From: Paenibacillus silvisoli
Lineage (GTDB): Bacteria > Bacillota > Bacilli > Paenibacillales > Paenibacillaceae
Direction of reading: 5' to 3'
Assembly: GCF_030866765.1 (NCBI RefSeq)
Contig: NZ_CP133017.1
Span: 6,056,501 to 6,120,500 of the forward strand
Length of the DNA: 64,000 nt
The notes beneath the pieces are model-generated. The model saw only the letters and a program-made list of their open reading frames with translations, was not told the DNA's origin and did no database searches. Of the stretch, positions 1,703 to 45,755 are shown piece after piece. Positions within the stretch are counted from its first letter, which is position 1. Every line of letters starts with the position of its first letter. The position numbers and the translations under genes are program-made.

Positions 1703-3799
1703 CTAGTCGCCAATCGTGCGAAAATCAATCTGCTTCGGCGGCGGACAGGTGGCCGCCGCTTCGTCGATCAGCGCCTGCGTCAGCTCTACGCCGCGCTGTG
1801 CGGCAAGCTTTTTCGCCCGATGCCGGTACCACAGCTCGATGACGAGCGTCTCGCCCTCGCGAATGACCGCGAACTCCGACGCGAAAAGCTTCTCCATAAA
1901 CGCGTCCCGGCCAAGCTCCAGCGCGGCGGCGCCGACGATAATCTGAATGCGTTCCCCCGCGGCGAGCGCCGGAGGCAAGCTCTCGTATACATGCCAAGCA
2001 CGCTCGAACTCCTTATGCTGCACGAGCAAATTCACGTATTCCTCGACGAAGGCGCGGTCCGGGAAAGCGCCCGAAACCGCATAGGCCTGCTCGTAATAAG
2101 CAAGCGCTCCTGCCATGTCGCCCTTCCGCTTCTCCGCCTCGGCCAGATTGCGGCACGCCCAAGCGGACGGCTGGATACGCAGCGATGCTTCCCAAGCCTC
2201 CATCGCCTCTGCGGCCTGTCCGCTCTCGTAGAGCATGACCCCATATTGCAAATACGCCGTCCACGTCCGGCCCTGCGGATGCCGCTCAAGGCTGGCGGCC
2301 AGCCGCTCCATCCATTCCGCTTGAATCATCCACGACGGCGGAATTGCCTCCGGCGAATGCTCCGGCAAATAACCGTCGCGCAGCAGGACAAGCCATGGCT
2401 GCTGCGCTGCCTCTAACGTCTCCTCGCCGAAGCCGAAGCCCTGCGGAATGCCGCGTCCTTGCTCCTCGTTCTCGCGGCGCACCTGCTCCAGCGCACCCCA
2501 ACCCGAGCCGCGGTGAAGCATTTCTTCCGGCGTCCGGACGGCCAGCGCCCGATGCCGCTCCAATGCTTCGTACGTCGCTTCGCTGCTAAGCGCATCGTCT
2601 ATGCGGCGTTCGACTTCGCTGCGGGCGGCTCCCCAGTCCGTCTGATACGCCGCAGCCGTGGCCTCTGCCGTATCTAAGTCCAGCATCCCGATCAGCTGCG
2701 TGAAATCCCAAACGGAATCCGCCGGCATCGTAATGCCGTGCAGCTGCGTCGGCGCCAGCCCCGCCTGCACTTCAATGTAGTTGCCCTCGCCGGGCCGGGC
2801 CAAGTAATCGCACCAGCGCCGGCCTCCGATATGATGGCCCCAGCAGAACATTTTCCGGTAGCGCAGCTTGGACGTCGACCGTTCGAAGAACAGCCGGCCA
2901 TCCTCGTAAGCGACCGCCTCCCAAGGCGACCTGACCGCAGCCGGCGTCTGGAAGAAATATTCGCTCGCATACGGAAAGGCCATCGGATACGAGGCGTCCG
3001 CGCCCGGCACGGCCGGCAGCTCCGGCATCCGGTCGAAGCCGTACCCCCGAGCCGTAGGATCGATGTAAATGACGTCCCCGGTCGAGGAGAATACACGGGA
3101 GCCGGCCGTTTCGTCTACGGCGATGTTCGTCCACCAATACATCGGGATTTCCGCCAGGTTGTCGTTGACGATGCGGACATGCACCTGAAGCTGCCGAGCG
3201 CCTTTTGGCAGATGGGCGTCGACTTGCCAGAACAGATTTTTGCACCGTTCATACTCGTACAGCCGGATAAATTCGTTGCCATCGTCGTCGGTCAGCTTGG
3301 CCGCATGCATGGAGGAGCAGGTCGAGAAGGTGTGTCCAAGGTGACCGATGTTCCACTCGATGCCACCTGAGAACCAGGCGTTGAGAATAGCTAAGTTGCC
3401 CGGCTGGAAGACCGGGTTCCGAAACAAAATCTCCCGATCGGCCCCCTTATCCCGAAGCGAGTACAGCCGTCCACCGTATTCGGGGAGGAATATGGCCTTC
3501 AGCGCGTCATTTTCCAATGTGATCGTCTTCAGCGGCATGAGCTCGCGCTGTCTGGAATACCGGTCCTGCATCCGGTACGGCAGGAAACGCTCTCCTGCGT
3601 TTTCGCCCATCTGCTGCCGCAGCTCATCCGTCAAGCTCCCGTTGTCCGTCACCTTCCGATGCGGATTGCCGCTCCTGAACATCGGCAGCGGATTTTCCCC
3701 CTCCAGCCTCGCGCCCTCGATCATCAACGTACCCGTGGTCACCTTCACCCTGCGGATCATCTCCTCCGTGATTGGACTCTTCGCTAACTCTATTCGCAT
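1703..3799 (-). CDS. DUF5107 domain protein with C-terminal TPR repeats
   Basis: About 698 residues. The N-terminal two thirds (roughly residues 60-400) look like the DUF5107 beta-rich domain, with segments such as LPEYGGRLYSL, NAWFSGGIEWNIG and YWWTNIAVDET; the fold resembles aldose-epimerase/galactose-mutarotase-like sandwiches. The C-terminal third (about 480-640) is helical with tetratricopeptide-like repeats. Such proteins recur in polysaccharide-utilisation loci and are proposed to bind or process sugars, but no reaction is established that I can name. It is the first gene of a minus-strand operon with the phosphoesterase and GH95 genes. No convincing ribosome site precedes the first ATG; a GGAGGAG lies within the first 15 codons, so the exact start is uncertain. 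Confidence 0.8.
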   Translation of the reverse strand: MRIELAKSPITEEMIRRVKVTTGTLMIEGARLEGENPLPMFRSGNPHRKVTDNGSLTDELRQQMGENAGERFLPYRMQDRYSRQRELMPLKTITLENDALKAIFLPEYGGRLYSLRDKGADREILFRNPVFQPGNLAILNAWFSGGIEWNIGHLGHTFSTCSSMHAAKLTDDDGNEFIRLYEYERCKNLFWQVDAHLPKGARQLQVHVRIVNDNLAEIPMYWWTNIAVDETAGSRVFSSTGDVIYIDPTARGYGFDRMPELPAVPGADASYPMAFPYASEYFFQTPAAVRSPWEAVAYEDGRLFFERSTSKLRYRKMFCWGHHIGGRRWCDYLARPGEGNYIEVQAGLAPTQLHGITMPADSVWDFTQLIGMLDLDTAEATAAAYQTDWGAARSEVERRIDDALSSEATYEALERHRALAVRTPEEMLHRGSGWGALEQVRRENEEQGRGIPQGFGFGEETLEAAQQPWLVLLRDGYLPEHSPEAIPPSWMIQAEWMERLAASLERHPQGRTWTAYLQYGVMLYESGQAAEAMEAWEASLRIQPSAWACRNLAEAEKRKGDMAGALAYYEQAYAVSGAFPDRAFVEEYVNLLVQHKEFERAWHVYESLPPALAAGERIQIIVGAAALELGRDAFMEKLFASEFAVIREGETLVIELWYRHRAKKLAAQRGVELTQALIDEAAATCPPPKQIDFRTIGD

Positions 3800-4033: not shown

Positions 4034-4075
4034 AAAAAAAAGACCCCGGGGCACCACAAAGTGCCCCAAGGTCCT
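4034..4075 (-). terminator. Rho-independent terminator of the GH172 operon
   Basis: On the minus strand, a GGACCTTGGGGCAC arm pairs with GTGCCCCGGGGTC around a short loop and is followed by eight T residues (complement of the A run at 4034-4041). It lies 16 bases after the GH172 stop codon and closes the five-gene leftward operon. Confidence 0.9.
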
Positions 4076-4090
4076 TGCTCTATTACTCGC

Positions 4091-5182
4091 TTAACGCGGC
4101 CATCTCTTCTCCTTCGGCAGCATCGCCGGGAATGGCGCATGCGGCTCCATCTGGTACCAGTACGCCACGGACGAAATATCGTCCGAACGCTCGAACAGCC
4201 CCTTATGGTCATGCCCGATTTGCTGAACGGTCACGCGCAGATCGGACTCGAACCGGATCGGGTCCGGCAAATGCCAGCGGTACATGCCGTGCATCGGCAC
4301 GTTGTGGCCGTACCACGGATCGATGTTCGCCGTTTCCTTATAGAATTTGTAGCCGAGGAACGGCGTGGTATACGACTCCGGCCCGTCCTCGCCGACGAAG
4401 CACCATGCGCCGCCGACGTAATCCTCGGTCCCGGTGCCGCAGATCGTCGGCCACTCGTCGTCGCCGTCCATGTAAAACTTCAGCTCGCCTTCGCCCCACC
4501 AGTTGCGCTCCAATGCCGCCCAAGCCAGGTACGTACCGATGTACTGTCCGGTACCTTTGACATTGTCGAGGATCGTGTAGTCCTTCGCGATTTCCGTCAC
4601 ATGCTCCCGGCGCCACTGCGCGTGAAAATAAGCGGTGTTCTCCGGCAACTCGTCCATCAGCGTATAGTTGAACGTGTAGAAAAACGCCCCGATATCGTAG
4701 GCATGCTGATTCTCGATCGTGATCTTAGCGGACTTGCGGAACGGCATCGGGAAATAGCAGTTCATGCCGCCCGTCGGATTGACCGAGATCGGCATCGAAT
4801 TGACGATCGTGCGGGTCGCAAAGCCGTTGCAGAAAAAATCGCCCAGCGGCACTTCGACCGACGGCTCCGTTTCGCCATCCCAATACATGCGCAGAACGAG
4901 ATCGCGCAGAACGAAGCTTGCGGCATGTCCCTTGTCCGGCGTCTTATCGGTTACCGTAATCCAGAAATGCTGCAGCACGCCCGTCCCGTCGATTTCCGCG
5001 AGGGTGACGGTTTCGCCTGCCGTTAACCGGATGCACGGACGGCCTTTGCGGCCTTGGCCGAGATTGCTGTAATCTTTGCCTCCCGCGCCTTTGGCCCCCG
5101 TAGGATTTTCGGCGGTGATGGAGCGGCTTCTTCCGTTGGTGACGAAAGGGGCGGTCGATAGGTCGTACGTAAATCCGTTCAT
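4091..5182 (-). CDS. GH172-family protein (DUF2961), first copy
   Basis: Predicted 363-residue protein of the DUF2961 family, now classed as glycoside hydrolase family 172, whose characterised members cleave alpha-D-fructofuranosyl or alpha-D-arabinofuranosyl linkages as single- or double-jelly-roll oligomers. Typical segments are AEIDGTGVLQHFWITV, the MYWDGETEPSVEVPLGDFFCNG block, and GTGTEDYVGGAWCF. There is no signal peptide. A GTG three codons upstream is in frame, but the ATG at 5180-5182 is 6 bases after AGGTG and is preferred. It is the last gene of the aminotransferase-GH4-GGT-SDR operon and is followed by a strong terminator. A paralogue lies at 38093-39241. The substrate cannot be read from sequence. 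Confidence 0.87.
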   Translation of the reverse strand: MNGFTYDLSTAPFVTNGRSRSITAENPTGAKGAGGKDYSNLGQGRKGRPCIRLTAGETVTLAEIDGTGVLQHFWITVTDKTPDKGHAASFVLRDLVLRMYWDGETEPSVEVPLGDFFCNGFATRTIVNSMPISVNPTGGMNCYFPMPFRKSAKITIENQHAYDIGAFFYTFNYTLMDELPENTAYFHAQWRREHVTEIAKDYTILDNVKGTGQYIGTYLAWAALERNWWGEGELKFYMDGDDEWPTICGTGTEDYVGGAWCFVGEDGPESYTTPFLGYKFYKETANIDPWYGHNVPMHGMYRWHLPDPIRFESDLRVTVQQIGHDHKGLFERSDDISSVAYWYQMEPHAPFPAMLPKEKRWPR

Positions 5183-5220
5183 GTTCTGCACCTCGTATGT
5201 GTTGGAAGTCTATTACGCAG

Positions 5221-5994
5221 TTAAATAAACGCCGATGTCGCGCCATCCGCGAAAATGCTCGCGCCCGTAATGGCCGTCGATTCGTCCGAAGCCAGGAACA
5301 GCACGACGTTCGCGATTTCGCGGACGGTGGCCATTTTGCCGGTCGGCTGCTGCTGCTTGATGATCGGATACAGCTTATCCATGCCGCCGACTTCTTCAAC
5401 GAGCTTCCGGTTCATTTCCGTATCGACCCAGCCGGGACAGATGGCGTTGCAGCGAACGCCTTGCTCCGCATACTCGACCGCGACCGCTTTGGTGAAGCCG
5501 ATAATGCCCGCCTTGGATGAGGTGTACCCGGTGTAGTGCGGCTCCGTAAGCGTGGACATGACGGAGGACGTGTTAATGATGGAACCGCCGCCGCGTTTCA
5601 GCATCTCCGGGATGACGCGCTTGCTGAGGAGGAACATCGCTTTCAGGTTGACGTCCATGACGCTGTCCCACGTTTCTTCCTCCATTTCGAGCACGGACAC
5701 GACCGGCATGATGCCGGCATTATTGAACAAAATATCGATGCCCCCGAACGCCTCGAGCCCCGCCGCCAGCACGCGGTCCGCCGTTTCGGACAGCGACACG
5801 TCGCCTGCGACCGCCACGACGGACGCGCCGCCGGCTTTCAGCTGCTCCGCCGCTTCCAGCAGCTTGGCCTCGTTATTATCGACAAGCACCAGCTGGGCGC
5901 CCTCTTCGGCGAACCGCTCCGCGGTGCCTCTGCCGATGCCGGATGCCGCGCCGGTAACGACCGCGATTTTGCCTGACAATCTGTTTCCTGCCAT
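5221..5994 (-). CDS. Short-chain dehydrogenase/reductase (SDR)
   Basis: Predicted 257-residue classical SDR. It has the cofactor motif TGAASGIG near the N terminus, NNAG in the middle and the catalytic YTSSK (Tyr-x-x-x-Lys), followed by NAICPGWVDT. After the first strand, an aspartate (LVLVD) suggests NAD(H) rather than NADP(H). The preferred start is the ATG at 5992-5994, eleven bases after AAAGGAG; a longer form would start seven codons earlier. It lies 38 bases after the next gene's region boundary (GH172 downstream) and 51 bases downstream of the GGT gene, in the same minus-strand operon. It probably oxidises or reduces a sugar or hydroxy-acid intermediate of the pathway. Confidence 0.9.
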   Translation of the reverse strand: MAGNRLSGKIAVVTGAASGIGRGTAERFAEEGAQLVLVDNNEAKLLEAAEQLKAGGASVVAVAGDVSLSETADRVLAAGLEAFGGIDILFNNAGIMPVVSVLEMEEETWDSVMDVNLKAMFLLSKRVIPEMLKRGGGSIINTSSVMSTLTEPHYTGYTSSKAGIIGFTKAVAVEYAEQGVRCNAICPGWVDTEMNRKLVEEVGGMDKLYPIIKQQQPTGKMATVREIANVVLFLASDESTAITGASIFADGATSAFI

Positions 5995-6045
5995 CTCCTC
6001 ATGCACTCCTTTCAAAATATCGCTGTTGCAGCAGCAACGCCTCTC

Positions 6046-7662
6046 CTACCAGCACGCCACCGAACCATCCGAGCGAAAATCGCTCGCGCCCGCAAAGCCT
6101 CCGCCATTCGGCAAGCGCCAAATGACATTTCCTCTGCCGAAGTTTCCGTTCGGACGACAGCCCGAAGTCAGCTGATGCCCTCTGCCGATAAGCTCGCGGG
6201 CAATGGCAGCCTCCTCCGGCAAGCCGCTTTCCATTTGGAACGCCAGCTTCTCCATCCACTGCCAGCGCGGCGCATCCAGCACCTGCTGCGGATTCATGCC
6301 GAAGTCGACGGTATTCATGATCATTTGCACATGGCCCTGCGGCTGCATGAAGCCGCCAACCATGCCGAACGGACCGATCGCCTCGCCGCCTCGGGTGAGG
6401 AAGGACGGGATAATGGTATGGAACGTTCTTTTGCCCGGCTGGAGGCAGTTGTCGTGGGACGGATCAAGCGAGAAATTGTGCCCTCTGTTCTGGAGACTGA
6501 TGCCGGTACCCGGAATAACCACGCCTGAGCCGAAGCCCATGTAATTGCTCTGGATCAGCGACACCATGTTCCCCTCGGAGTCCGCCGTGCAGACGTAAAC
6601 CGTTCCGCCCTTCTGCGGCTTTCCGACGAACGGCTCGCGTGCCGCGCTGCCAATCAGTCGTCTGCGCTCCTCCGCATACGCGTCGGACAGCAGGTCCTCG
6701 ACCTTCACCTTCATCATCCGCGAATCGGTGATGTAGGCTTTGCCGTCCGTGTAGGCGAGCTTCATCGCTTCGAACTGCTTATGCAGCGTCTCCGGCGAGT
6801 AAGGGCTGTCGAATTCGAAGCCCTTTAAAATATTTAACGCCATTAGCGCAACCAGCCCCTGGCCGTTCGGCGGGATTTCCCACACGTCATAGCCGCGGTA
6901 ATTGACGCTGATCGGCTCCACCCACTCCGGGCGGAACGCAGCCAGGTCGCTCTTCCGGAGATAGCCGCCGTGCTCGCGCATGAAGCGGTCAATCCGATCC
7001 GCGTACATGCCCACGTAAAATTCGGCCGCGCCGGTTTCTGCGATGCGCCTTAACGTTTCCGCATGGTGCGGCAGTCGGAACCGTTCGCCAGCCCGGGGCG
7101 CTTTGCCGCTGGCGTCGGCGAACGTCTCGAACCAGGTCCGCACTTCCGGTACCTTGGACGCCGCGTAAATATCGACGTGAAATTGCCACGCCTCCGCGGC
7201 CAGCGTAGCCACGTTGAAGCCGTCCTCGGCGTAGCCGATCGCCGGTGCCAACGACTCCGTGAGCGCCAGCCGTCCGAAGCGCCGGCTCAATTCCGCCCAC
7301 GCGCCGGGGGCTCCCGGCACCGTCACCGGGACAACGCCATGCGCGGGCATTTCCTTGAAGCCGCGCTCCGCCAGCTTCTCCAGCGAAATCGCCGCCGGAG
7401 CCGGCCCGCTCGCGTTCAAGCCGTGCAGCTTGCCGCCGCTCCAGACGAGCGCGAACGTGTCGCTGCCGATGCCGTTGTTGTTCGGCTCGACAACGGTCAA
7501 GCAGGCTGCCGCCGCAACCGCCGCATCGATGGCGTTGCCGCCTCGCTTCAGCATGTCGAGCCCTGCTTGCGCGGCCAGCGGCTGAGATGTGGACACCATG
7601 CCGCGTCCCGCATAAGTGCAGTACCGCATGGAAGGAAAATGGTATTGCTCCGCATTGAACAT
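6046..7662 (-). CDS. Gamma-glutamyltransferase family protein, apparently cytoplasmic
   Basis: Predicted 538-residue Ntn-hydrolase proenzyme. The KGGTVYV segment places the autoprocessing/catalytic threonine at about residue 354, separating a large and a small subunit as in gamma-glutamyltranspeptidases, and GGNAIDAAVA near the N terminus is typical. No signal peptide is present, as in the YwrD-like branch, so it should act inside the cell on a gamma-glutamyl or similar amide. A GAGGGGAG ribosome site precedes the ATG. It is the third gene of the leftward operon, between GH4 and SDR. This is an unusual neighbour for glycosidases and hints that the substrate carries an acyl/gamma-glutamyl-type amide. 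The true substrate is unknown. Confidence 0.9.
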   Translation of the reverse strand: MFNAEQYHFPSMRYCTYAGRGMVSTSQPLAAQAGLDMLKRGGNAIDAAVAAAACLTVVEPNNNGIGSDTFALVWSGGKLHGLNASGPAPAAISLEKLAERGFKEMPAHGVVPVTVPGAPGAWAELSRRFGRLALTESLAPAIGYAEDGFNVATLAAEAWQFHVDIYAASKVPEVRTWFETFADASGKAPRAGERFRLPHHAETLRRIAETGAAEFYVGMYADRIDRFMREHGGYLRKSDLAAFRPEWVEPISVNYRGYDVWEIPPNGQGLVALMALNILKGFEFDSPYSPETLHKQFEAMKLAYTDGKAYITDSRMMKVKVEDLLSDAYAEERRRLIGSAAREPFVGKPQKGGTVYVCTADSEGNMVSLIQSNYMGFGSGVVIPGTGISLQNRGHNFSLDPSHDNCLQPGKRTFHTIIPSFLTRGGEAIGPFGMVGGFMQPQGHVQMIMNTVDFGMNPQQVLDAPRWQWMEKLAFQMESGLPEEAAIARELIGRGHQLTSGCRPNGNFGRGNVIWRLPNGGGFAGASDFRSDGSVACW

Positions 7663-7698
7663 GTCCGTTCAACTCCCCTCGCATCTGAGCCTGCGCTT

Positions 7699-9060
7699 TT
7701 ACACCTTCGCCGCCGTACCGAAACGCTCCTTCATGCCCGACAAATAAGGCAGCGATAAAATATCGTCCAGCAGCGCATTCGCCTGCTCGATCGAACGCGT
7801 CCACGGGTCCATCATAATCAGCTGCAGCATCAAATCCCGGCTGCCGCTTTCGAATGCGGCCAGCTCGATTTCGATCGGAGCGACCCGGTCCCGAAGCGCG
7901 AAAGACAGCAGCTGCTGCGGCAGCCCTTTGGTCGGCAGCCCTTCCACGCCCGCAGCCGAGACGCGGCACGGCACCTCGACTTGGAAATCCTGCGGAATGC
8001 CCGGCACATAGTTGCCGTCATTAAGAATGTTCAAAATAATCGTGCGCGGCGAGTCGCATACGATCGCTTCAATAAACGGAATCATCGGCTCCGTCGAGTG
8101 CGTCATCGGAATCATGTCGCTGACCGCGCGGGTCGTGTCTTCCGCGATGCTCTTGATTTTGCGCGCTTCTTCTTCGCCATGGCGGAAATAGCCTTCATAC
8201 CACTCGGCAGGGTTTTCCTTCCACTTGCGCTCCGTTTCGTCGTCGGCATGGTACCAGTGGCCCCACGCGCCGCCGCCCGGATTGCCGGTGTCGCCGATCG
8301 GGTATGCGCCGAATTTGCGGTACAGGTCGACCATCTTCGGCCCCATCGAATCGCAGTCGCGGCACGCCTCGAAATGCGCCTCCGATTGCTCCTCGATCCA
8401 GCGGTTCAGCACCGGGAAGGCGTCCTCCCCTTTATGCTTAAACTCGGTTAACCATATAAAATGATTCACGCCCGGCACTTCGAATTCGATTTCGTTCGGG
8501 TCGAGACCCAGCCTGCTTGCGAGGTAGCGCACCCCGTTCGAGCCGTGGCAGAAGCCGGCGATGTTCGCCTCCGGATATTTGCGCTTCAAGTAGGTCACGC
8601 CGGCGCTGACCGGGTTCGCCACGAGCATGAACCACGCGTTCGGGCAAATGTCCAGCGTATCCTTCAGCACATCCTCCATCAGCTCCAGCTGGCAATAGTT
8701 GATCCAGAAGCCCTCGTCATGCACGATGTGCAGGCTGCCTCCGAACCGGTAGCCGTGCTTGCGGGCGATGGCCCAGCCGTCCTTCAGCCGTTGATGGCCG
8801 CCGACCAACGCGGCGAGAATGACGAAGTCCGCTCCCTCAAGCGCCTCTCTGCGATCCATCGTCTTGAGCAGCGTCAGCTCGGCGCCCGCTTCGGCGGCCA
8901 AACGCTCGCACAGCGCGTGCGCGCTGTTCAAGCGGCTTTCATCGATATCCATAAAATGAACCGTGCTGCCCGCCAGATTCGGCGTCAAGCATAAATCCCG
9001 AATCATGCTGAGCGAAAATACCGTCGTTCCCGCGCCGATAATGGCGATTTTAGCTGGCAT
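7699..9060 (-). CDS. GH4 family NAD/Mn-dependent glycosidase, first copy
   Basis: Predicted 453-residue GH4 enzyme (alpha-glucosidase/alpha-galactosidase/6-phospho-glycosidase family). It has the N-terminal Rossmann motif IIGAGTTVF, GSTVHFMDID, LVANPVS, a metal-ligand Cys in GFCHGS (about residue 171) and a metal-ligand His in PGVNHFIW (about 200). GH4 enzymes cleave by transient oxidation at C3, elimination and re-reduction. The ATG at 9058-9060 is chosen because GAGGGG lies 9 bases upstream; an in-frame TTG lies two codons earlier. It follows the aminotransferase gene by about 20 bases in the operon. A paralogue of nearly the same length is at 15429-16778. No PTS genes are nearby, so a non-phosphorylated glycoside is more likely. 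Confidence 0.92.
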   Translation of the reverse strand: MPAKIAIIGAGTTVFSLSMIRDLCLTPNLAGSTVHFMDIDESRLNSAHALCERLAAEAGAELTLLKTMDRREALEGADFVILAALVGGHQRLKDGWAIARKHGYRFGGSLHIVHDEGFWINYCQLELMEDVLKDTLDICPNAWFMLVANPVSAGVTYLKRKYPEANIAGFCHGSNGVRYLASRLGLDPNEIEFEVPGVNHFIWLTEFKHKGEDAFPVLNRWIEEQSEAHFEACRDCDSMGPKMVDLYRKFGAYPIGDTGNPGGGAWGHWYHADDETERKWKENPAEWYEGYFRHGEEEARKIKSIAEDTTRAVSDMIPMTHSTEPMIPFIEAIVCDSPRTIILNILNDGNYVPGIPQDFQVEVPCRVSAAGVEGLPTKGLPQQLLSFALRDRVAPIEIELAAFESGSRDLMLQLIMMDPWTRSIEQANALLDDILSLPYLSGMKERFGTAAKV

Positions 9061-9081
9061 ATCCAAATTCCCCTCTCTTCT

Positions 9082-10377
9082 CTATTTCTTCATCTCTTTG
9101 AGCACGGCTTCCATCGCTTCCAGCGTGTCGTCGATGTCTTTGTCCGTGTGGCTGTAGCCGATGGAATTGCGCTTGATGTTCATCGGCATTTTGAAAATCC
9201 CCCGCTCGATCAGCTTCTTCCGGTACGCCACGTAGAACTCCGCGTCGTTATGCTGCAGATCTCCGTAATGCTTCGGCTCGAAGCCCATGAAATACGTCGT
9301 CCAGACCGATCCGAAACCGGCGACATACGCTTCGATGCCTAGACGTTCCAGAATCTCCCGCAATCCGCCGCGAATCCGATCGCCAAGGCGGAAAACATGC
9401 TCGTGCACCGGCTCGTTCTCCATCATCTCGATCGTCGCGATCGATGCGGCCGTGCCGACGGCATGGCCATTATACGTGCCCGCGAACCAGACGTCGCCGC
9501 CAGGGTACGTGTTGAAGCGCTGCATGTACTGCTTTTTGCCGGCAACGGCGGCAATCGGGAAGCCGTTGGCCATCGCTTTGCCCATCGTGGTCAGGTCCGG
9601 CGTGACGCCGGCTACCTTTTGGAAGCCGCCGATGTCATGGCGGAAGCCGGTGATGACTTCATCGAAAATAAGCAGCGCGCCGTACTCCGTGCACAGCTTG
9701 CGCAGTCCCGCCAGGAATCCCGGCTCCGGCAAAATGCAGCCGACATTGTGCGGAATCGGCTCGACGATGAGCGCGGCGATTTCGCCTTTATTTTGGCGGA
9801 ACGTTTCTTCCACGCTGTTAAGGTCGTTAAACGTACAGATGAGCGTATTGTCGATCGCTTCATCCATCATGCCCGCGGATCCCGGGTCGCGCGTGCCGAT
9901 CTTATCCCAAGCGCTCAGCATGTTGCGCGCGACGTAATCGTGCCAGCCGTGGTAGCAGCCTTGGAATTTGATCAGCTTTTTGGCGCCGGTAATGGCCCGC
10001 GAAAGGCGAATCGCATGGTAAGTCGCTTCCGAGCCGGAGTTGCAGAACAGCACTTGCTCGGCGGACGGCATGTGCTTCGTAATCTTTTTCGCCAATTCGA
10101 TTTCGAGATCGGTCGTTCCGACGCCGTAGAGGTCCGTCCGGCCTAACGCCTCGATGACCTTGCCGTTCACATAAGGATGGTTATGGCCGAGAATGAACGG
10201 CCCGAACGCCGCCTGATAATCGATGTAACGGTTGCCGTCCGCATCGAACACGTAAGCTCCCTCCGCGCGCGTAAAAACCAAATGCGGCTCCACGTTACGA
10301 ATGGACGTGTGAACGCCGCCCGGCGAATACAGTTTAGCTTCCTCGTACAACCGGAGACTTTCCGGATAGCTTTTCAT
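9082..10377 (-). CDS. Class-III PLP aminotransferase, glutamate-1-semialdehyde mutase-like
   Basis: Predicted 431-residue fold-type-I, class-III PLP enzyme. Visible features are CNSGSEATYHAIRLSRA (phosphate-binding region), YHGWHDY, FDEVITGFR with the ring-nitrogen-contacting Asp, and TMGKAMANG with the Schiff-base Lys at about residue 267. The sequence resembles HemL (glutamate-1-semialdehyde 2,1-aminomutase), but the position as first gene of an IclR-controlled glycosidase/GGT operon argues for a catabolic transaminase or aminomutase acting on an amino sugar or amino acid derivative, rather than tetrapyrrole synthesis. There is no hem gene nearby. The start has AGAGGTGTC upstream and a recognisable promoter at 10432-10460. 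Confidence 0.88.
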   Translation of the reverse strand: MKSYPESLRLYEEAKLYSPGGVHTSIRNVEPHLVFTRAEGAYVFDADGNRYIDYQAAFGPFILGHNHPYVNGKVIEALGRTDLYGVGTTDLEIELAKKITKHMPSAEQVLFCNSGSEATYHAIRLSRAITGAKKLIKFQGCYHGWHDYVARNMLSAWDKIGTRDPGSAGMMDEAIDNTLICTFNDLNSVEETFRQNKGEIAALIVEPIPHNVGCILPEPGFLAGLRKLCTEYGALLIFDEVITGFRHDIGGFQKVAGVTPDLTTMGKAMANGFPIAAVAGKKQYMQRFNTYPGGDVWFAGTYNGHAVGTAASIATIEMMENEPVHEHVFRLGDRIRGGLREILERLGIEAYVAGFGSVWTTYFMGFEPKHYGDLQHNDAEFYVAYRKKLIERGIFKMPMNIKRNSIGYSHTDKDIDDTLEAMEAVLKEMKK

Positions 10378-10418
10378 AGGGAAGACACCTCTTTTATGTT
10401 CAGTATTTTAAAAATAAA

Positions 10419-10460
10419 TTCACTATACTGAATATAATGCGATATAATCGGAAGTGTCAA
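10419..10460 (-). promoter_or_regulatory. Promoter and operator-like box of the leftward operon
   Basis: On the minus strand, a TTGACA -35 (10455-10460), a 17-base spacer and a TTATAT -10 (10432-10437) are followed immediately by TTCAGTATAGTGAA (10419-10432), a near-palindrome of TTCAnTATAnTGAA type. The last T of the -10 is the first T of the box. The same box in the same phase occurs at the promoter downstream of the IclR gene. A further TTCAGTAT half site lies at 10399-10406. Confidence 0.72.
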
Positions 10461-10485
10461 GGTACTCGCATCGATAGATTACAGG

Positions 10486-10514
10486 TTGAAGTTATGCTAA
10501 TCTAGGTTCATAAA
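10486..10514 (+). promoter_or_regulatory. Possible iclR promoter
   Basis: TTGAAG at 10486-10491 and CATAAA at 10509-10514 are separated by 17 bases and lie 26 bases before the TTG start of the IclR-family gene. This is a moderate match to a sigma-A promoter, divergent from the leftward operon. Confidence 0.4.
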
Positions 10515-10540
10515 CAGACAAGAAACGGGGAATCCGCGCT

Positions 10541-11335
10541 TTGACTACCAAGAAAGATTATACGGTTCCGGCATTGGAAAAAGCGATCATGATATTGAAC
10601 GAAATCAGCGAAACCGGCGAGCTGTCCATCACCGAGATGCATCAGCGGCTGCAAATTCCGAAATCGACGACCTTTGTCATCTTGAGCACGCTCGAGAAGC
10701 ATCATTTAATCGAAAAATGCGCCGAGGGCAAGTTCCGCCTTGGCTCCGCCGTCCTTCATCTCGGCGCTGCGTTCGCCCGGCAGACGGACATTCGCGCCGT
10801 TGCCCGGCCGCATCTGGAGCTCCTCGTGCAAGGCACGCCGTTCACCGCCCATCTGGCGACGCTGGTCGGCAGCCAGCCGGTTTACATCGACAAGGCCGAG
10901 GGCGACGGCTTCGTCCGCTTCGCGACGACGATCGGGCAATCGCTGCCGCTGCACGCCTCGGGCGTCGGCAAAGCGCTTGCCGTCGGCATGAGCGACGAGG
11001 AAATCGTGGATGCCGTCGAGTCCAAGCTGGAGCCGCTGACCGGCAAAAGCTACCGGACGGTCGACGAGGTGCTCGAAGATATCCGGATGGCACGCAAGCT
11101 CGGCTATGCCATTGAGGACGAGCAAATGGAAGAAGGCATCCGCTGCATCGGCGCGCCGATCTTCAATGCAGCCGGCAAAGTCGCCGCTTCGGTCAGCATT
11201 ACGGCGCTCGCGAAGGATTTGCCGGTATTCAAGCTTCAGCAAATCGGCGAGCGGGTCAAAGAAATCGCCGATGCGATTTCCACGGACTTGGGCTACGTCT
11301 TCTCGGAGCGGAAATCGGAACGAGAGAACGGTTGA
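10541..11335 (+). CDS. IclR-family transcriptional regulator
   Basis: Predicted 264-residue regulator. Residues about 8-65 form the winged HTH (ALEKAIMILNEISETGELS, then RLQIPKSTTFVILSTLE); residues about 85-255 match the IclR effector-binding domain (LPLHASGVGKA, EDEQMEEGIRCIGAPIFN). The start is TTG at 10541. It lies between the leftward aminotransferase-GH4-GGT-SDR-GH172 operon and the rightward ceramidase-like/ADP-ribosylglycohydrolase genes. Its stop codon overlaps the -35 of the rightward promoter. Matching operator-like boxes at both flanking promoters, placed over the -10/+1 region, suggest that it represses both units until an effector (a pathway intermediate) binds. The effector is unknown. 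Confidence 0.92.
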   Translation: MTTKKDYTVPALEKAIMILNEISETGELSITEMHQRLQIPKSTTFVILSTLEKHHLIEKCAEGKFRLGSAVLHLGAAFARQTDIRAVARPHLELLVQGTPFTAHLATLVGSQPVYIDKAEGDGFVRFATTIGQSLPLHASGVGKALAVGMSDEEIVDAVESKLEPLTGKSYRTVDEVLEDIRMARKLGYAIEDEQMEEGIRCIGAPIFNAAGKVAASVSITALAKDLPVFKLQQIGERVKEIADAISTDLGYVFSERKSERENG

Positions 11336-11394
11336 CACCGTTATCTACCCATTTTATTATTCAGTATATAGAACACTGTTCATATAGATGAACA
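11332..11394 (+). promoter_or_regulatory. Promoter with nested operator-like dyads upstream of the ceramidase-like gene
   Basis: TTGACA (11332-11337), a 17-base spacer and TATTAT (11355-11360) form a near-consensus promoter. TTCAGTATATAGAA (11360-11373) begins at the last base of the -10, exactly as in the leftward promoter. It is followed by GAACACTGTTC and by the perfect inverted repeat TGTTCAT-ATAG-ATGAACA (11377-11394). These overlapping dyads are good candidates for IclR-family binding. Confidence 0.72.
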
Positions 11395-11411
11395 AGAAGG
11401 TGGGAGCCCTC

Positions 11412-12821
11412 ATGCTTACAGCCGGCGTTGCCCGTGCCAACATTACTCCGCCGCTTACCGTCCCTCACGCGGGATGGGGCGCGCAAACCCATGTATATCC
11501 CGAAGGCATCCATTACGACCTATGGGCAACCGTGCTCTGTCTTGCCCAAGACGGCGAGCTCGTCTGCTTGGCCGATCTCGACCTTTGTTACGTGACGATG
11601 CCGCAGGCGGAACTTTTGCGGGAACGCATCGCCGCCGCGCTTGGCATTGCTGCGTCTCGCGTCCGAATTTCGACCTCGCATACTCACGCAGGTCCGTTCA
11701 TCCATTCGAACTGGTACAAGGATGATGATGCGACCGTTACTTACATAAACGAAATGGTTGAGGCCATTGTTGGCTGCGCCGCAGAAGCCGCGCGGGAGCT
11801 CGTTCCGGTTCGCGTTGCCGCAGGCTTCGGCGAGTGCGGCATCGGCAAGCGCCGCATTCAGAAGCTGGACGATGGCCGTCTTATTACGGGTTACGACCCT
11901 AACGGCGCGACCGACCCGATCGTCGGCACGGTCAAGCTTGAGACTACCGACGGCGAGCTGCTGGCGAGTCTCCTGTACTTCTCTTGCCATCCGACGACGC
12001 TCGGACCGGACAACAAGCTGGTCAGCCCGGACTATCCCGGCGTAGCGCGGCGCGTCGTCGAGCAGCTGACCGGCGGCCGCTGCCTGTTCCTGCAAGGCTC
12101 GACCGGCGATATCGGGCCGGGGCCTGAAGGCTTCCGGAGCGACTACGCCGCCGTCGAGCGGATGGGGACGATACTCGGCAGCGAGGCAGCGAAGACGCTG
12201 CTTCAATTGGAAGCGGTCCCATCCGCGTGGCAGTTCGAGCGCGTCGTCGAGTCCGGGGCGTCGCTTGGCTTGTGGACGAACGCGGCAGACGTTTCGGACA
12301 GCAGTCCGGCTCCGTTGCTCGTCGCTTCCCGTATGATCGAGCTGCCGATTAAGCAGCTCGTGCCGACCGAGGAAGCGGAGCAGCTGTATCTGGCTTGCCA
12401 GTCCCGCATGCAGGAGCTGATCGAGCAAGGCGGCTCGGCCGACGACATCCGCGAGGCGACGTACAAGGTCAAACGCTCTCATAAAATATGGCAGCAATCG
12501 CTGCGCTACTACGGTCAAGCTAGCGCTAGTATCGAGGCGCATTTTATCGCCTTCTCGGACATCGTCCTCGCCGGCGTGCCTGTTGAGCCCTTCTCCAGCA
12601 CAGGCAAAGGGATTCGGGAGGCGTCGCCTTTCGCCTGCACGCTGTTCGGCGGCTACACCAACGGCTGGCTCGGCTATTTGCCGCCGGCCGAACAATATGC
12701 CGAGGGCGGCTACGAAATCGAAACGTCGCCTTTCGCCGAAGGTGCCGCCGAGCTGCTGGCCGGTCAAGTAACCGCGATTTTGCGCGAGCTATATGAACAA
12801 TCATCATCGACAAGGACGTGA
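11412..12821 (+). CDS. Neutral/alkaline ceramidase N-terminal-domain-like hydrolase
   Basis: Predicted 469-residue protein matching the N-terminal catalytic domain of neutral/alkaline non-lysosomal ceramidases: start region AGVARANITPPL, zinc-site-like STSHTHAGP, and FLQGSTGDIGPG. True ceramidases are about 650-780 residues, secreted, and carry a C-terminal immunoglobulin-like domain; this one is shorter, without signal peptide or that domain, so it is probably a cytoplasmic amide hydrolase of different specificity. The ATG at 11412 follows GGTGGGAG with 5-6 bases spacing; an upstream ATG at 11388 lies within the operator dyad and lacks a ribosome site. The next gene starts 10 bases after the stop. 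The lipid nature of the substrate should not be assumed. Confidence 0.82.
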   Translation: MLTAGVARANITPPLTVPHAGWGAQTHVYPEGIHYDLWATVLCLAQDGELVCLADLDLCYVTMPQAELLRERIAAALGIAASRVRISTSHTHAGPFIHSNWYKDDDATVTYINEMVEAIVGCAAEAARELVPVRVAAGFGECGIGKRRIQKLDDGRLITGYDPNGATDPIVGTVKLETTDGELLASLLYFSCHPTTLGPDNKLVSPDYPGVARRVVEQLTGGRCLFLQGSTGDIGPGPEGFRSDYAAVERMGTILGSEAAKTLLQLEAVPSAWQFERVVESGASLGLWTNAADVSDSSPAPLLVASRMIELPIKQLVPTEEAEQLYLACQSRMQELIEQGGSADDIREATYKVKRSHKIWQQSLRYYGQASASIEAHFIAFSDIVLAGVPVEPFSSTGKGIREASPFACTLFGGYTNGWLGYLPPAEQYAEGGYEIETSPFAEGAAELLAGQVTAILRELYEQSSSTRT

Positions 12822-12831
12822 ATCATCCGTT

Positions 12832-14226
12832 ATGTTTCCATCGCTTCCATATTTGAAAGGCCAGCTTACCGCCGTGATCGGCGAGCAATTCGCGCAAGGC
12901 CGGAGCACGTCCGGCTTTCTGGAGCGGCTGGAGCAGCTTCCGGCAAGCTACGACGCTTACTTGGCGTTTGCGGCTTCGCTCGCGGATATGCCGATGCGGG
13001 AAGACTGGCCCTACGTCGAGCCTGAGACGTGGGAAGACATTCAAGCGGCTTGCGATCCTGACCGGCCGCTTGGCGCGCTGCGCGAGATCGCTGCCGACGA
13101 CAGCCGCCGCCGCGTCGAGACCGCTTTTCTCGCTTCCGTTTGCGGCTCGATTCTGGGCAAGCCGCTTGAGATCAATCCGACGCTTCCGCAGCTGCGGGAA
13201 GCGTTCGAGCAAGCCGGCGAATGGCCGCTCGCCGATTACGTGTCCGAGCCGATGCTGCGCGCGCTCGGCAAGAGCCACTGGAGCTGGTTCGAAACGACAC
13301 GGGAGCGAATTCGCCACGTTGCGCCGGATGACGACGTCAATTACACGCTCATCGGCATGCTGGCCATCGAGCAGTTCGGCGTTGGCTTTACGAAACGGAA
13401 CATACGCGATCTATGGCTTAATCATTTGCCGCTCAGCACGACGTTCGGACCGGAGCGCACGATGCTGATCCGTTCCGGCATGAGCTACCTGGAGCACGAT
13501 AACCGCCCGTTTGATCATGCCGAGTTAGAGGCATGGCCGAGCCTGCTGTCTCCCGGCTCCGAGCTGTGCGGCGCGGCGATCCGGGCGGATGCCTACGGCT
13601 ACGCTTGTCCCGGCAACCCGGCGCTGGCCGCCGAGCTTGCTTGGCGCGACGCCAGCTTCACGCATCTTAAAACCGGCGTGTACGCGACGATGTTCATCGC
13701 CGCGGCGATAGCGGCCGCGCAGGTGCTCGATGACCGGCTCGCTATTGTGAACACGGCGCTTCAATTCGTGCCGCAGCGCAGCCGCTTCTACGAAATCGCA
13801 GTCGACTGCCGCGACATCGCGGCAAGCACCGACGATTGGCTGGACGCTTACGAGCGCATGCGCCAAAGCTACGGCGATTACCGCCATTGCCGGATCTATT
13901 TCGAAATCGGCACGCTGATCAACACGCTGCTGCATGCCGATAACGTCGGCGACGGCATCTGCAAGCAAGTGATGCAGGGCAACGACACCGACAGCTTCGG
14001 CGCTACGGCCGGCTCGCTGCTGGGCGCGTATTTCGGCCCCGAAGGCCTCGACCCGCGTTGGCTGGCGCCGTTCGGCGATACGATCCATACGGGTCTCGCC
14101 AATTTGAACGAGACGTCGCTGTCCGCGCTGGCTGCCCGCGTCTCCCTGCTGCCGGAAATCGTCCGCACCGGCTCCAGCCGCATCGAGCCGAGCGAGCTGT
14201 ATGTGTTCGAACATGTCATTGAGTAG
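12832..14226 (+). CDS. ADP-ribosylglycohydrolase-family protein
   Basis: Predicted 464-residue all-helical protein of the ADP-ribosylglycohydrolase (ADPRH/DraG) superfamily. The N-terminal ASVCGSILGKPLE, the acidic metal-binding DDDVNYTLIG and the C-terminal GNDTDSFGATAGSLLGA provide the Asp/Thr ligands for two Mg ions. Many family members in catabolic loci act on nucleoside-like or N-glycosidic compounds rather than protein ADP-ribose. I prefer the ATG at 12832; an alternative in-frame ATG at 12793 would overlap the preceding gene by 29 bases and has no ribosome site. The gene is cotranscribed with the ceramidase-like gene and ends in a terminator at 14235. Confidence 0.85.
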   Translation: MFPSLPYLKGQLTAVIGEQFAQGRSTSGFLERLEQLPASYDAYLAFAASLADMPMREDWPYVEPETWEDIQAACDPDRPLGALREIAADDSRRRVETAFLASVCGSILGKPLEINPTLPQLREAFEQAGEWPLADYVSEPMLRALGKSHWSWFETTRERIRHVAPDDDVNYTLIGMLAIEQFGVGFTKRNIRDLWLNHLPLSTTFGPERTMLIRSGMSYLEHDNRPFDHAELEAWPSLLSPGSELCGAAIRADAYGYACPGNPALAAELAWRDASFTHLKTGVYATMFIAAAIAAAQVLDDRLAIVNTALQFVPQRSRFYEIAVDCRDIAASTDDWLDAYERMRQSYGDYRHCRIYFEIGTLINTLLHADNVGDGICKQVMQGNDTDSFGATAGSLLGAYFGPEGLDPRWLAPFGDTIHTGLANLNETSLSALAARVSLLPEIVRTGSSRIEPSELYVFEHVIE

Positions 14227-14234
14227 GTTAGTAG

Positions 14235-14262
14235 AGACGGAGCTGGCGCTCCGTCTTTATTA
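14235..14262 (+). terminator. Terminator of the ceramidase-like/ADPRH operon
   Basis: AGACGGAGC (14235-14243), a TGGC loop and GCTCCGTCT (14248-14256) form a perfect 9-bp stem, followed by a T-rich tail. It begins 8 bases after the ADPRH-family stop. Confidence 0.85.
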
Positions 14263-14282
14263 TTGTGAACATAACGAGTAAC

Positions 14283-15318
14283 TGTAGTGCTCTACGGACT
14301 CTTCTTTCACTCTTTTGGCTCGCTTTCGGCGAAAGTAGTGCTCCACGGGCAAATTCCAGCGAATCGAACCAATGTGAGGTAACTGTTACCGCACATGAAG
14401 CAACTTCCGGCAAATCAAGCCCATGTGAGGTAACTGTTACCGTTCTTGAAGTAAATTTTGGGGCTATCGATCCAATGTGAGGTAACTGTTACCGCACATG
14501 AAGCAAATTTCAGCGAAACGGGCCAGTTTGGGGGAACTGTTCCCCTTCCTAGCCCGCTTTCCCACGATTCGAGCTAGTTTAGGGGAACCATTCCCCTTCC
14601 TAGCCCACTTTCCCAGCGAAACGGGCCAGATTGGGGGAACTATTCCCCTTCCTAGCCCGCTTTCCCACGATTCGAGCTAGTTTAGGGGAACCATTCCCCT
14701 TCCTAGCCCACTTTCCCAGCGATTCGGGCTAGTTTGGGGGAACTATTCCCCTTCCCAGCCCACTTTCCCACGATTCGAGCTAGTTTAGGGGAACTATTCC
14801 CCTTCCCAGCCCACTTTCCAGCGATTTGGGCTAGTTTGGGGGAACCGTTCCCCTTCCTAGCCCACTTTCCCAGCGATTCGGGCTAGTTTGGGGGAACCGT
14901 TCCCCTTCCTAGCCCACTTTCCCACGATTCGAGCTAGTTTAGGGGAACCATTCCCCTTCCTAGCCCACATTCCAGCGATTCGGGCCAGTTTGGGGGAACC
15001 GTTCCCCTTCCTAGCCCACTTTCCCAGCGATTCGGGCCAGTTTGGGGGGAACCGTTCCCCCTTCCTAGCCCGCTTTCCCACGATTCGAGCTAGTTTAGGG
15101 GAACTGTTCCCCTTCCTAGCCCACATTCCAGCGATTCGGGCCAGTTTGGGGGAACCGTTCCCCTTCCTAGCCCACTTTCCCATCGATTCGAGCTAGTTTG
15201 GGGGAACCGTTCCCCTTCCTAGCCCACTTTCCGGCGAAACGGGTCAGTTTGGGGAACTGTTCCCCTTCCCAGCCCACATTCCAGCGATTCTGGCCAGTTT
15301 TGAGGGAACTGTTCCCCT
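14283..15318. repeat. Tandem array of about 51-bp units, each centred on a perfect dyad
   Basis: The whole space between two convergent operons is filled by units of 50-53 bp. Three units (dyads at 14378, 14429, 14481) carry GGTAACTGTTACC. They are followed without a change of period by sixteen units carrying GGGAAC-centred dyads of the form GGGGAAC(nn)TTCCCC, starting at 14532, 14583, 14635, 14686, 14738, 14789, 14840, 14892, 14943, 14994, 15047, 15099, 15150, 15202, 15252 and 15304. Flanks are conserved: CCTAGCCCACTTTCC after the dyad and CGATTCGGGCTAGTTT before it. Two divergent units with GTAGTGCTCTAC and GTAGTGCTCCAC lie at 14283-14350. Unit length varies by single bases, so the array is not maintained as coding sequence. 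No gene is supported here. Confidence 0.93.
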
Positions 15319-42638: not shown

Positions 42639-42662
42639 CGTTGCTTTATACCCTCCATTTGA

Positions 42663-42703
42663 AATGCCCTTAATCGCTTTTCATAGAAACGATTAAGGGC
42701 ATT
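42663..42703 (-). terminator. Perfect 14-bp stem-loop between GH30 remnant and DUF429 gene
   Basis: AATGCCCTTAATCG (42663-42676) and CGATTAAGGGCATT (42690-42703) form a perfect stem with a 13-base loop. It lies downstream of the GH30 stop and about 25 bases before the DUF429 start, both on the minus strand. The tail is ATTTC, so termination may be weak. Confidence 0.55.
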
Positions 42704-42798
42704 AGCTATGCATAATGCTATCATTGCAAGAGATGCCAAGGGTGTCAATTCGGGAACGCGCATCATTTTTTACAATGCGTATCGATTTCTTACGCTGC

Positions 42799-44036: not shown

Positions 44037-45755
44037 CTACCCCCGGCCCACGACCGGCGGCACGAACCGGACTTCCGTTTCGTCGGCCGGACGCAGAAAC
44101 GACAGGTCGCAGCCCTCGTGCGCCTGCAGCACCGTATCGTTAAATAAACGCGGATAGCCCCGCTTATGCTTCTTCTCCGCAGGCTTCCAAGCCTTCCTCC
44201 GCTCCTCCAGCTCCTCATCGGATACGTCGAGCGTCAACCGGCCCTCGCCGATATTGATCTCGATCCAGTCCCCGGTATGGACGAGCGCGAGCGGACCGCC
44301 CGCGGCAGCCTCCGGCGATACGTGCAAAATCACCGTGCCATAGCTCGTCCCGCTCATCCGCGCATCGCTGATCCGCACCATGTCGCGCACGCCTTCGCGC
44401 AGCAGCTTGCGCGGAATCGGGATCGCGCCCCATTCCGGCATGCCCGCGCCGATCGGGCCGCAATTGCGCAGGATCAACACCGTATCGGCATCGACGTCGA
44501 GCGACTCGTCCGCCAGCTGGTCCAGCATCCGCTCGTAATCGTCGAAGACGAACGCCTTGCCGCGGTGCTGCTCCCGGAGCTTCGATGCCGACAGCTTCAG
44601 CACCGCTCCGTTCGGCGCGAGATTGCCTTTGAGCACGGCAATGCCCGACACCGCCGATAGCGGCCGCTCCGGCGATAGGACAACGTCGGTATGCCGCGGC
44701 GCGCTCGCGTAGGCTTCCCCAACGGTCGTGCCGAGCGCCGTCAAGCTGTCGCCGTGCAGCCACGGCAGCAGCTCGCGGATGACGGCAGGCAATCCGCCCG
44801 CGTTGAAGAAATCGTCCATGCCGTAGCGGCCGCTCGGCTGCAGATCGACGAGCAGCGGCACGCCCTGCGACAGCTCCGCGTACCGCTCCAGCGGAATGCG
44901 GATGCCGAGCCGCCCGGCGATCGCGGTCAAATGGATGACCGCGTTCGTCGAGCCGCCGAGCGCGGCGAGCAGCCGGATCGCATTGTCGAAGGCTTGCTCG
45001 GTCAGCAGCTTGTCCACCGTCAAGCCATCGCGCACCATGGCGACAATGCGCTTGCCCGTTTCCTCCGCCGCGATCTTCCGCAGCGAATGCGAGGCCGGGA
45101 TCGAGGACGACCCCGGCAGCATGACGCCGAGCATCTCGGCCATGCTCTTCATCGTCGACGCCGTGCCCATGACCGGACAGCCGCCGCGCGAGCAGGACAT
45201 GCACTGCTCCAGCTCCCGAACGTCCTCGTCGCTTAATTTGCCGGCGGCGTATTCGTCCATATAGGTCCACAAGTCCGTGCCGTAGTGGACCGGCTTGCCG
45301 CGGAAGCTGCCGGAAGCCCGGTGGCCCGCCGCCAGCAGGAGCGCCGGAAGCCGGCTGCTGGCCGCGCCCATGAGCTGCGCGGGCGTCGTTTTGTCGCATT
45401 CGCAGAGCAGCACGACGCCGTCGATCGGCAGCGCGCGGATTTGCTCCTCCACATCCATCGCCATCAAATTCCGGTACGGAAGATCGGACGGCTTCATGAA
45501 ATCGGAAGGCGTCGTGATCGTATGCATCTCAATCGGGTAGCCCCCCGCCAGCAGGATGCCCCGCTTCACGTATTCCACCAATTCTTTATGCGGCATATTG
45601 CAGCTGTTTAAGTCATTCCACGAATTAAATATCCCGATCACGGGCTTGCCCACGAACGAGTCCGGCACATGGCCGTTCGAGCGCATCGCCGAACGATGCT
45701 GAAATCGCGTCTCTGCAGACGGATGGTTGAACCACGCTTCGCTTCTAAGCTTCAT
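44037..45755 (-). CDS. IlvD/Edd family dehydratase, probably sugar-acid dehydratase
   Basis: Predicted 572-residue Fe-S dehydratase. Cluster and metal ligands appear as NSCNMPHKEL, LCECDKTTPAQLMGAAS and CMSCSRGGCPVMGTASTM. These segments, together with GKPVHYGTDLWTYMDE, resemble L-arabinonate/D-xylonate-type dehydratases of the family more than the branched-chain DHAD enzymes, and no ilv genes are adjacent. It would convert an aldonic acid to a 2-keto-3-deoxy acid. A GGGGAGAG ribosome site precedes the ATG. Direct TTACG repeats spaced 20 bases (45846-45870) lie upstream. The precise substrate is not determinable from sequence. Confidence 0.87.
   Translation of the reverse strand: MKLRSEAWFNHPSAETRFQHRSAMRSNGHVPDSFVGKPVIGIFNSWNDLNSCNMPHKELVEYVKRGILLAGGYPIEMHTITTPSDFMKPSDLPYRNLMAMDVEEQIRALPIDGVVLLCECDKTTPAQLMGAASSRLPALLLAAGHRASGSFRGKPVHYGTDLWTYMDEYAAGKLSDEDVRELEQCMSCSRGGCPVMGTASTMKSMAEMLGVMLPGSSSIPASHSLRKIAAEETGKRIVAMVRDGLTVDKLLTEQAFDNAIRLLAALGGSTNAVIHLTAIAGRLGIRIPLERYAELSQGVPLLVDLQPSGRYGMDDFFNAGGLPAVIRELLPWLHGDSLTALGTTVGEAYASAPRHTDVVLSPERPLSAVSGIAVLKGNLAPNGAVLKLSASKLREQHRGKAFVFDDYERMLDQLADESLDVDADTVLILRNCGPIGAGMPEWGAIPIPRKLLREGVRDMVRISDARMSGTSYGTVILHVSPEAAAGGPLALVHTGDWIEINIGEGRLTLDVSDEELEERRKAWKPAEKKHKRGYPRLFNDTVLQAHEGCDLSFLRPADETEVRFVPPVVGRG

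Follow-up and report, generated by a model that had tools for sequence, protein, structure and literature searches.

What would bring two glycosidases, an aminotransferase and two amidase-like enzymes together around one regulator gene? The question is raised by a locus of the soil bacterium Paenibacillus silvisoli lying at about 4.0-14.3 kb of the 64,000-nucleotide stretch of DNA analyzed here (the window; G000:C1:6056501-6120500, within a 6.73 Mb single-contig genome), where a gene for an IclR-family regulator separates a leftward five-gene operon from two rightward genes. We propose, with a probability of roughly 45%, that IclR represses two divergent arms which together would dismantle, in the cytosol, a glycoside bearing an amide or amine, either N-acylated or built on an amino sugar, with the sugar following a non-phosphorylative sugar-acid route. 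The individual parts are all of familiar types, and the full combination was encountered solely in this species and its sister, Paenibacillus montanisoli.

All eight genes described in the original prediction, which was made from the sequence alone, are present as open reading frames (ORFs), and their families are confirmed by Pfam and NCBIfam, with the best Pfam family above its curated cut-off in every case. The leftward operon, on the minus strand, begins with AT3, a GSAM-like class III aminotransferase (9082..10377; Pfam Aminotran_3, 2.1e-64), followed by the GH4 glycosidase GH4a (7699..9066; Pfam, 4e-38, with N- and C-terminal GH4 domains), a GGT-like Ntn hydrolase (6046..7662; Pfam GGT, 5.3e-147), an SDR oxidoreductase (5221..6015) and a GH172 protein (4091..5191; DUF2961, Pfam, 4.5e-94). 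It is tightly packed, with gaps of 15-36 bp, and its order is kept in P. montanisoli RA17, the nearest relative among the AT3 loci found (96% identical). On the plus strand, and also closely spaced, lie the IclR regulator (10541..11335; Pfam IclR_C, 6.5e-36), in which both domains are recognized (PF09339, 38.1 against a cut-off of 22; PF01614, 123.9 against 24), a ceramidase-fold metallohydrolase-like protein of short type, Cer (11388..12821; Pfam Ceramidase_alk, 1.4e-10), and an ADP-ribosylglycohydrolase-family protein, ADPRH (12793..14226; Pfam ADP_ribosyl_GH, 6.9e-33). The start of ADPRH may be at 12832, the start of the P. montanisoli ORF as called.

That both arms form one IclR regulon, as originally predicted, is supported by a pair of putative operators, at which binding is predicted. 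The palindrome TTCANTATANTGAA was first noticed when screening the regions upstream of AT3 and IclR in related loci, and with no more than one mismatch allowed it matches exactly two places in the window (0.10 expected; two or more in 0 of 100 shuffles). An exact copy, TTCACTATACTGAA (10419..10432, unstranded), stands between the divergent AT3 and IclR promoters, where it touches the -10 box of AT3 and covers the -35 element of a weaker site resembling an iclR promoter. The second, TTCAGTATATAGAA (11360..11373, unstranded; one mismatch), stands at the Cer promoter, its first base being the final one of the -10 box. P. montanisoli retains both copies, which is weak evidence alone because the species are so close. 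We gathered 53 loci with AT3 relatives from GTDB species genomes by a scan that reached only places matching short peptide patterns, and assembled 45 upstream sets from 39 of them, five others (L138, L144-L147) and the window itself. Of the 45, 16 have the motif upstream of AT3 or IclR. With the five discovery loci excluded (L037, L039, L044, L048, L059), the count is 11 of 40, which includes the window and P. montanisoli; the palindromes of L047 and L057 could already be seen at the discovery stage. For 399 shuffled palindromes, the mean was 0.18 and the maximum 8. Over these loci, 19 of the 28 motif matches fall in upstream stretches, and more copies lie immediately upstream of an SDR gene (L038) and a Gfo gene (L048).

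The operators touch the two best promoter-like sites, one before AT3 (TTGACA-18-TATATT, 10431..10460, minus strand) and one in the gap between IclR and Cer, reading into Cer and ADPRH (TTGACA-17-TATTAT, 11332..11360, plus strand), each with 11 of 12 matches. The latter overlaps the 3' end of iclR, and a single transcript might span IclR, Cer and ADPRH, supplemented by a promoter ahead of Cer. A strong terminator with a 17-pair stem and a T tail follows GH172 (4039..4076, minus strand), and the right arm ends in a weak terminator alone (14282-14297). The claim that each arm has its own promoter and terminator finds partial support, and counts in the window are only slightly in excess of shuffled sequence (7 promoters against a mean of 4.3, sd 1.9; 17 terminators against 13.6, sd 3.9).

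The surroundings of AT3 in other genomes identify what we regard as the better lead, a wider IclR-AT3 sugar-acid module of which the Cer gene is an occasional member. Neighbors were counted by tblastn and labeled by Pfam on representatives; the counts are not independent, because close relatives recur among the 53 loci, and seven of the loci are shorter than 14 kb, so that neighbors may be missed there. The 22 control loci were anchored on GGT or ADPRH relatives and hence provide no control for those two families. An IclR gene was found near AT3 in 33/53 loci (0/22 controls), an IlvD-type dehydratase in 27/53 (0/22) and an SDR in 36/53 (2/22), and either IlvD or a mandelate-racemase-type dehydratase (MR) in 36/53. 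Further neighbors among the 53 are amidohydrolases (27), fumarylacetoacetate-hydrolase-type proteins (17), Gfo/Idh proteins (17), SMP-30 lactonases (7) and M20 deacylase-like proteins (6). Cer lies within 4 kb of AT3 in five of the 53, three from Bacillota (L035, L048, L058) and two from metagenome-assembled genomes, of which the Thermomicrobiaceae contig (L071) has IclR-AT3-MR-Cer on a single strand and the Opitutaceae contig (L083) has AT3 adjoining a Cer-like gene (30%). Among 295 genomes of the family, AT3 occurs at 56% identity or more in seven and Cer (E<=1e-90) in four, all of them AT3 genomes (p=1.1e-7, or 2.3e-4 when the sister pair is excluded). Also present at three AT3 loci (L049, L144, L146) are genes for IlvD, an M20-type protein, a PIG-L-like protein (read from sequence) and a protein of 316-329 aa that, in its L144 version, matches no Pfam family. 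Neither AT3 (at 1e-120) nor Cer (at 1e-40) has a match in 72,556 plasmid records.

A second module accounts for the SDR and GH4 genes. GH4a (E<=1e-150) is present in 10 of the 295 family genomes, and its nine other loci, at 66-68% identity (two each in G175 and G141, one each in G041, G229, G275, G279 and G283), all have the order SDR-GH4a-aldose epimerase-IlvD-p318-aldehyde dehydrogenase, beside ABC permease-like genes. The SDR of the window shares 60-64% identity with its counterparts next to GH4 in these loci. NCBIfam classes the aldehyde dehydrogenase of one (L136) as an alpha-ketoglutarate-semialdehyde dehydrogenase (860 bits against a cut-off of 770), to which the remaining eight show 87-95% identity. 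Between IlvD and this dehydrogenase, all nine operons (L136:5786-6742; L137, L191-L197) encode the 318-aa p318, 84-96% identical to the L136 copy, for which neither Pfam (at 1e-4) nor NCBIfam (at 1e-20) gives a match; judged by its position, p318 is a candidate for an unrecognized 2-keto-3-deoxy-sugar-acid dehydratase. The window itself encodes, at 44037..45755 (minus strand), an IlvD/EDD-family dehydratase that shares 68-70% identity with those of the nine operons; its gene is one of three IlvD/EDD genes in the genome, and the protein scores above the broad dihydroxy-acid dehydratase subfamily (742.7 against 539). The two modules are bridged in one genome (G121), where an AT3 paralogue (56%) and a window-type SDR (63%) stand together with IlvD and an aldose epimerase relative on one strand, and a 2-hydroxyacid dehydrogenase gene and one of DHDPS type come next. 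From these two origins, the window cluster looks like a fusion of both modules.

The individual enzymes are compatible with a substrate that joins a sugar to nitrogen. AT3 has GSAM as its best solved relatives and falls below the HemL equivalog cut-off (TIGR00713, 403.4 against 527.3). At Glu406 of GSAM, which we take to be a functionally relevant position of GSAM/HemL, AT3 has Lys, as do, by eye, the 43 complete rows of the 45 AT3 relatives printed; some GC-rich loci (e.g. L037, L044, L052, L057) are missing from this 45-row cluster because antisense ORFs were picked. We take this to favor an intermolecular aminotransferase over a mutase, without proving it. AT3 is 37-41% identical to the next-best matches in the family, taken to be HemL.

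For the GGT-like protein, the closest solved structure is 2nlz, deposited as a cephalosporin acylase (E 1e-215), and the score is below the GGT equivalog (TIGR00066, 325.8 against 357.85) and within the broader Pfam family. Position 391 of E. coli GGT is presumably the Thr nucleophile at the processing site (Ala in chain 2e0w), and it aligns with a retained Thr354. All six positions that we take to bind the gamma-glutamyl group in E. coli GGT (Arg114, Asn411, Gln430, Asp433, Ser462, Ser463) are changed, to Ser85, Tyr374, Arg393, Asn396, His415 and Thr416. The protein is likely an amidase or acylase, and the gamma-glutamyl chemistry first ascribed to it was rejected on these residues.

Cer is likewise a likely amidase. 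It scores above the cut-off of the Pfam ceramidase N-terminal domain (40.9 against 32.1) and retains the HTHxGP motif and a second His, with both histidines aligned; in the ceramidase fold their role is, we assume, that of metal ligands. It is far below the neutral ceramidase equivalog (24.5 against 1200), and at 477 aa, against 646 in 2zws, it aligns mostly N-terminally and falls short of the full two-domain length. ADPRH belongs to its Pfam family (115 against 26.2). GH4a has AglA (1obb) as its closest solved relative, below the AglA equivalog cut-off, and carries CHGS at the specificity motif of the family, which we take to place it near the CHGx uronidase-type group. GH172 has the DUF2961 domain and the Glu pair in WWGEG / GTGTEDY, presumably catalytic. 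The SDR lies above the broad NCBIfam 'glucose 1-dehydrogenase' subfamily (232.6 against 215) and is likely a sugar 1-dehydrogenase.

In the proposed regulon, the glycoside would enter the cell, perhaps by way of the ABC genes at 21.8-25.4 kb, and GH4a and GH172 would free its sugar, which the SDR would oxidize toward a sugar acid. The GGT-like acylase, Cer or both might liberate the amine, which AT3, working in the presumed direction, would transaminate, and the IlvD at 44 kb, if it takes part, would dehydrate the sugar acid to a 2-keto-3-deoxy acid. ADPRH may also participate, and the order of these steps is provisional. IclR on TTCANTATANTGAA at both promoters would silence both arms until an inducer appears. 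The theme of a sugar with an amine or amide, which the original prediction had put forward, finds support.

Several observations weigh against this reading. The full set is seen in the window species and its sister only, and Cer is far from AT3 in two genomes (G097, G121). Cer alone is near AT3 in 4/46 loci against 0/22 controls (p=0.3), MR alone is not enriched (9/53 against 2/22), and neither are amidases as a class (11/53 against 7/22, the controls being partly GGT-anchored). AT3 scores above the broad GSAM subfamily model NF000818 (413.3 against 398), although we judge a HemL duplicate unlikely from the equivalog score and the change of Glu406 to Lys. The operator is missing from 29 of the 45 loci, one of the 399 shuffled palindromes likewise gave two window matches, and a motif scan at up to one mismatch found no operator at the IlvD gene at 44 kb. 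Across the whole genome the motif matches 24 places when one mismatch is allowed, two of these exactly; a lone one-mismatch copy therefore says little, whereas a pair less than 1 kb apart, each at its own promoter, says more. No alpha-ketoglutarate-semialdehyde dehydrogenase was found above the cut-off in the genome (best 424.8 against 770; the same search placed one of 14 control genomes above it), and no p318 homologue was found in the window or in the genome by a search that had no positive control, so that the end of the pathway differs or is absent in this organism. A plain Weimberg pathway is not supported here, the terminal dehydrogenase being under the cut-off.

The only other exact TTCANTATANTGAA in the genome (G000:C1:4221370, L218) lies inside a coding frame read as a citramalate/isopropylmalate-synthase-like protein, and the same is seen in P. 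montanisoli (L217). It is probably a coding coincidence and not an operator.

The strongest competitor, which we hold to be a tentative but serious account, is a co-regulated patchwork, in which GH4-SDR, GH172, the GGT-like gene and ADPRH were recruited into an older IclR-AT3-Cer locus of a sugar-catabolism region and act on separate substrates that co-occur in decaying plant or microbial matter. The original prediction had proposed, as a check, to look for at least five of the seven enzyme families beside an IclR gene, and had counted a lack of joint conservation in relatives as refuting. Within 10 kb of AT3, GGT, GH4, GH172 and ADPRH were each found in one of the 53 loci, that of P. montanisoli, and conservation of the system does not extend past the species pair, which is one of the two outcomes named as refuting. 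GGT-like proteins (E<=1e-200) occur in 76 of the 295 family genomes and ADPRH (E<=1e-100) in 25, and those examined, at seven and 16 loci, stand in other neighborhoods; a link between ADPRH and AT3 was rejected, with no co-occurrence beyond the sister pair (p=1). The wealth of glycoside hydrolase and ABC-type genes in the window also suits a patchwork. Against it stand the two predicted operators, one per arm, the tight leftward operon with its order kept in P. montanisoli, and the company of SDR and the AT3 paralogue in G121.

A more specific use of D-arabinan or D-arabinosides, with GH172 releasing D-arabinose, the SDR oxidizing it, IlvD dehydrating D-arabonate, and AT3 and the amidases acting on amine substituents, is unlikely. 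It would explain why GH172 is closest to the exo-alpha-D-arabinofuranosidase 8ic8 (PDB, 4.8e-80), and it fits the related GH4-SDR-IlvD operons, which end in alpha-ketoglutarate-semialdehyde dehydrogenase, as pentose pathways do. That dehydrogenase is the one lacking above the cut-off in the genome, however, and IlvD is under the L-arabinonate dehydratase equivalog (691.4 against 882). None of the 20 Pfam-scanned window genes is of GH183 or GH116 kind, no search having been aimed at either family. The GH172 family, according to PMC10509167, also acts on alpha-D-fructofuranosides. The D-arabinan clusters described there resemble the window in having a GH172 enzyme with ABC transport close by, and differ in holding GH183 and GH116 and in a scheme that draws D-arabinose toward D-ribulose-5-phosphate.

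The system first envisaged for this locus, in which seven enzymes form one dedicated pathway for a glycoconjugate with a gamma-glutamyl or N-glycosidic linkage, would account for the adjacency and the predicted common regulation, but it is very improbable given that the set is not conserved past the sister species, that the gamma-glutamyl-binding residues are lost and that ADPRH reaches 31 bits against the 337.05-bit cut-off of the DRAG (ADP-ribosyl-dinitrogenase hydrolase) equivalog.

The cytosolic regulon that we prefer has likenesses to described systems. With the oxidative, non-phosphorylative Weimberg and Dahms pentose pathways (PMC9795676) it shares a dehydrogenase and an IlvD-type dehydratase, and the nine related GH4-SDR operons also share the aldose epimerase and alpha-ketoglutarate-semialdehyde dehydrogenase. 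The window differs in uniting GH4 and GH172 with aminotransferase and amidase-like genes, and no terminal dehydrogenase was found above the cut-off in its genome. The nearest described logic, in which an oxidized amino sugar becomes a 2-keto-3-deoxy acid ahead of any phosphorylation, is that of the ong cluster for oxidative chitin catabolism in Pseudoalteromonas, where, according to PMC9537276 and PMC12017989, cytoplasmic deacetylation precedes deamination of the amino-sugar acid, partly under a repressor. PMC9537276 lists a D-aminoacylase-like deacetylase, a D-amino-acid-deaminase-like enzyme, KdgK, a beta-hexosaminidase and a MurR/RpiR regulator, and none of these enzyme or regulator kinds is among the eight genes of the window. 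Among the matches listed from the open-licence PMC literature, to which the search was confined, subscription papers being outside its scope, no title or abstract start concerned an IclR-AT3-Cer-dehydratase module or the combination in the window.

Around the locus, genes of glycoside hydrolase and ABC type are numerous at 15-46 kb of the window. GH4b (15429-16778) and a Gfo/Idh protein (16803-17954), both on the minus strand, have relatives at one locus of another genome (G105, L138), where the GH4, 67% identical to GH4b and 54% to GH4a, is accompanied by IclR, a DHDPS-type gene, ABC genes, an SDR (62%), SMP-30, Gfo (74%) and IlvD. The locus had been said to include no dedicated transporter; this is correct for 4.0-14.3 kb, but a solute-binding protein and two permease-like genes (read from sequence) follow at 21.8-25.4 kb. 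A 982-aa protein with no Pfam match at 1e-5 (27937-30885) adjoins an alpha-L-rhamnosidase-type gene, and a second GH172 (DUF2961) gene and genes of GH88 and GH30 type lie at 38093-39241 and 40735-43989. On the other side, directly downstream of the GH172 terminator and on the same strand, is a DUF5107 protein with weak TPR matches (1703-3799), with no match in the P. montanisoli locus (L035), which extends about 5 kb past GH172.

For the IclR-AT3 module itself, in some lineages together with Cer and a sugar-acid dehydratase and present on contigs of Bacillota, Thermomicrobiaceae and Opitutaceae, we raise the possibility, which we consider rather doubtful, that it is an oxidative route, so far undescribed, by which N-acyl amino-sugar acids are consumed. 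Deacylation of the substrate would fall to a ceramidase-fold or M20 amidase, and its nitrogen would be removed by a GSAM-like aminotransferase in place of a lyase or phosphate-dependent deaminase. The version in the window would be fused to a GH4/GH172 front end. If true, this would give functions to GSAM-like aminotransferases that are not HemL, to short ceramidase-fold proteins and to GGT-like acylases, would provide a testable operator for a group of Bacillales IclR regulators, and would point to a sugar-plus-amine nutrient of soil bacteria that has not yet been named.

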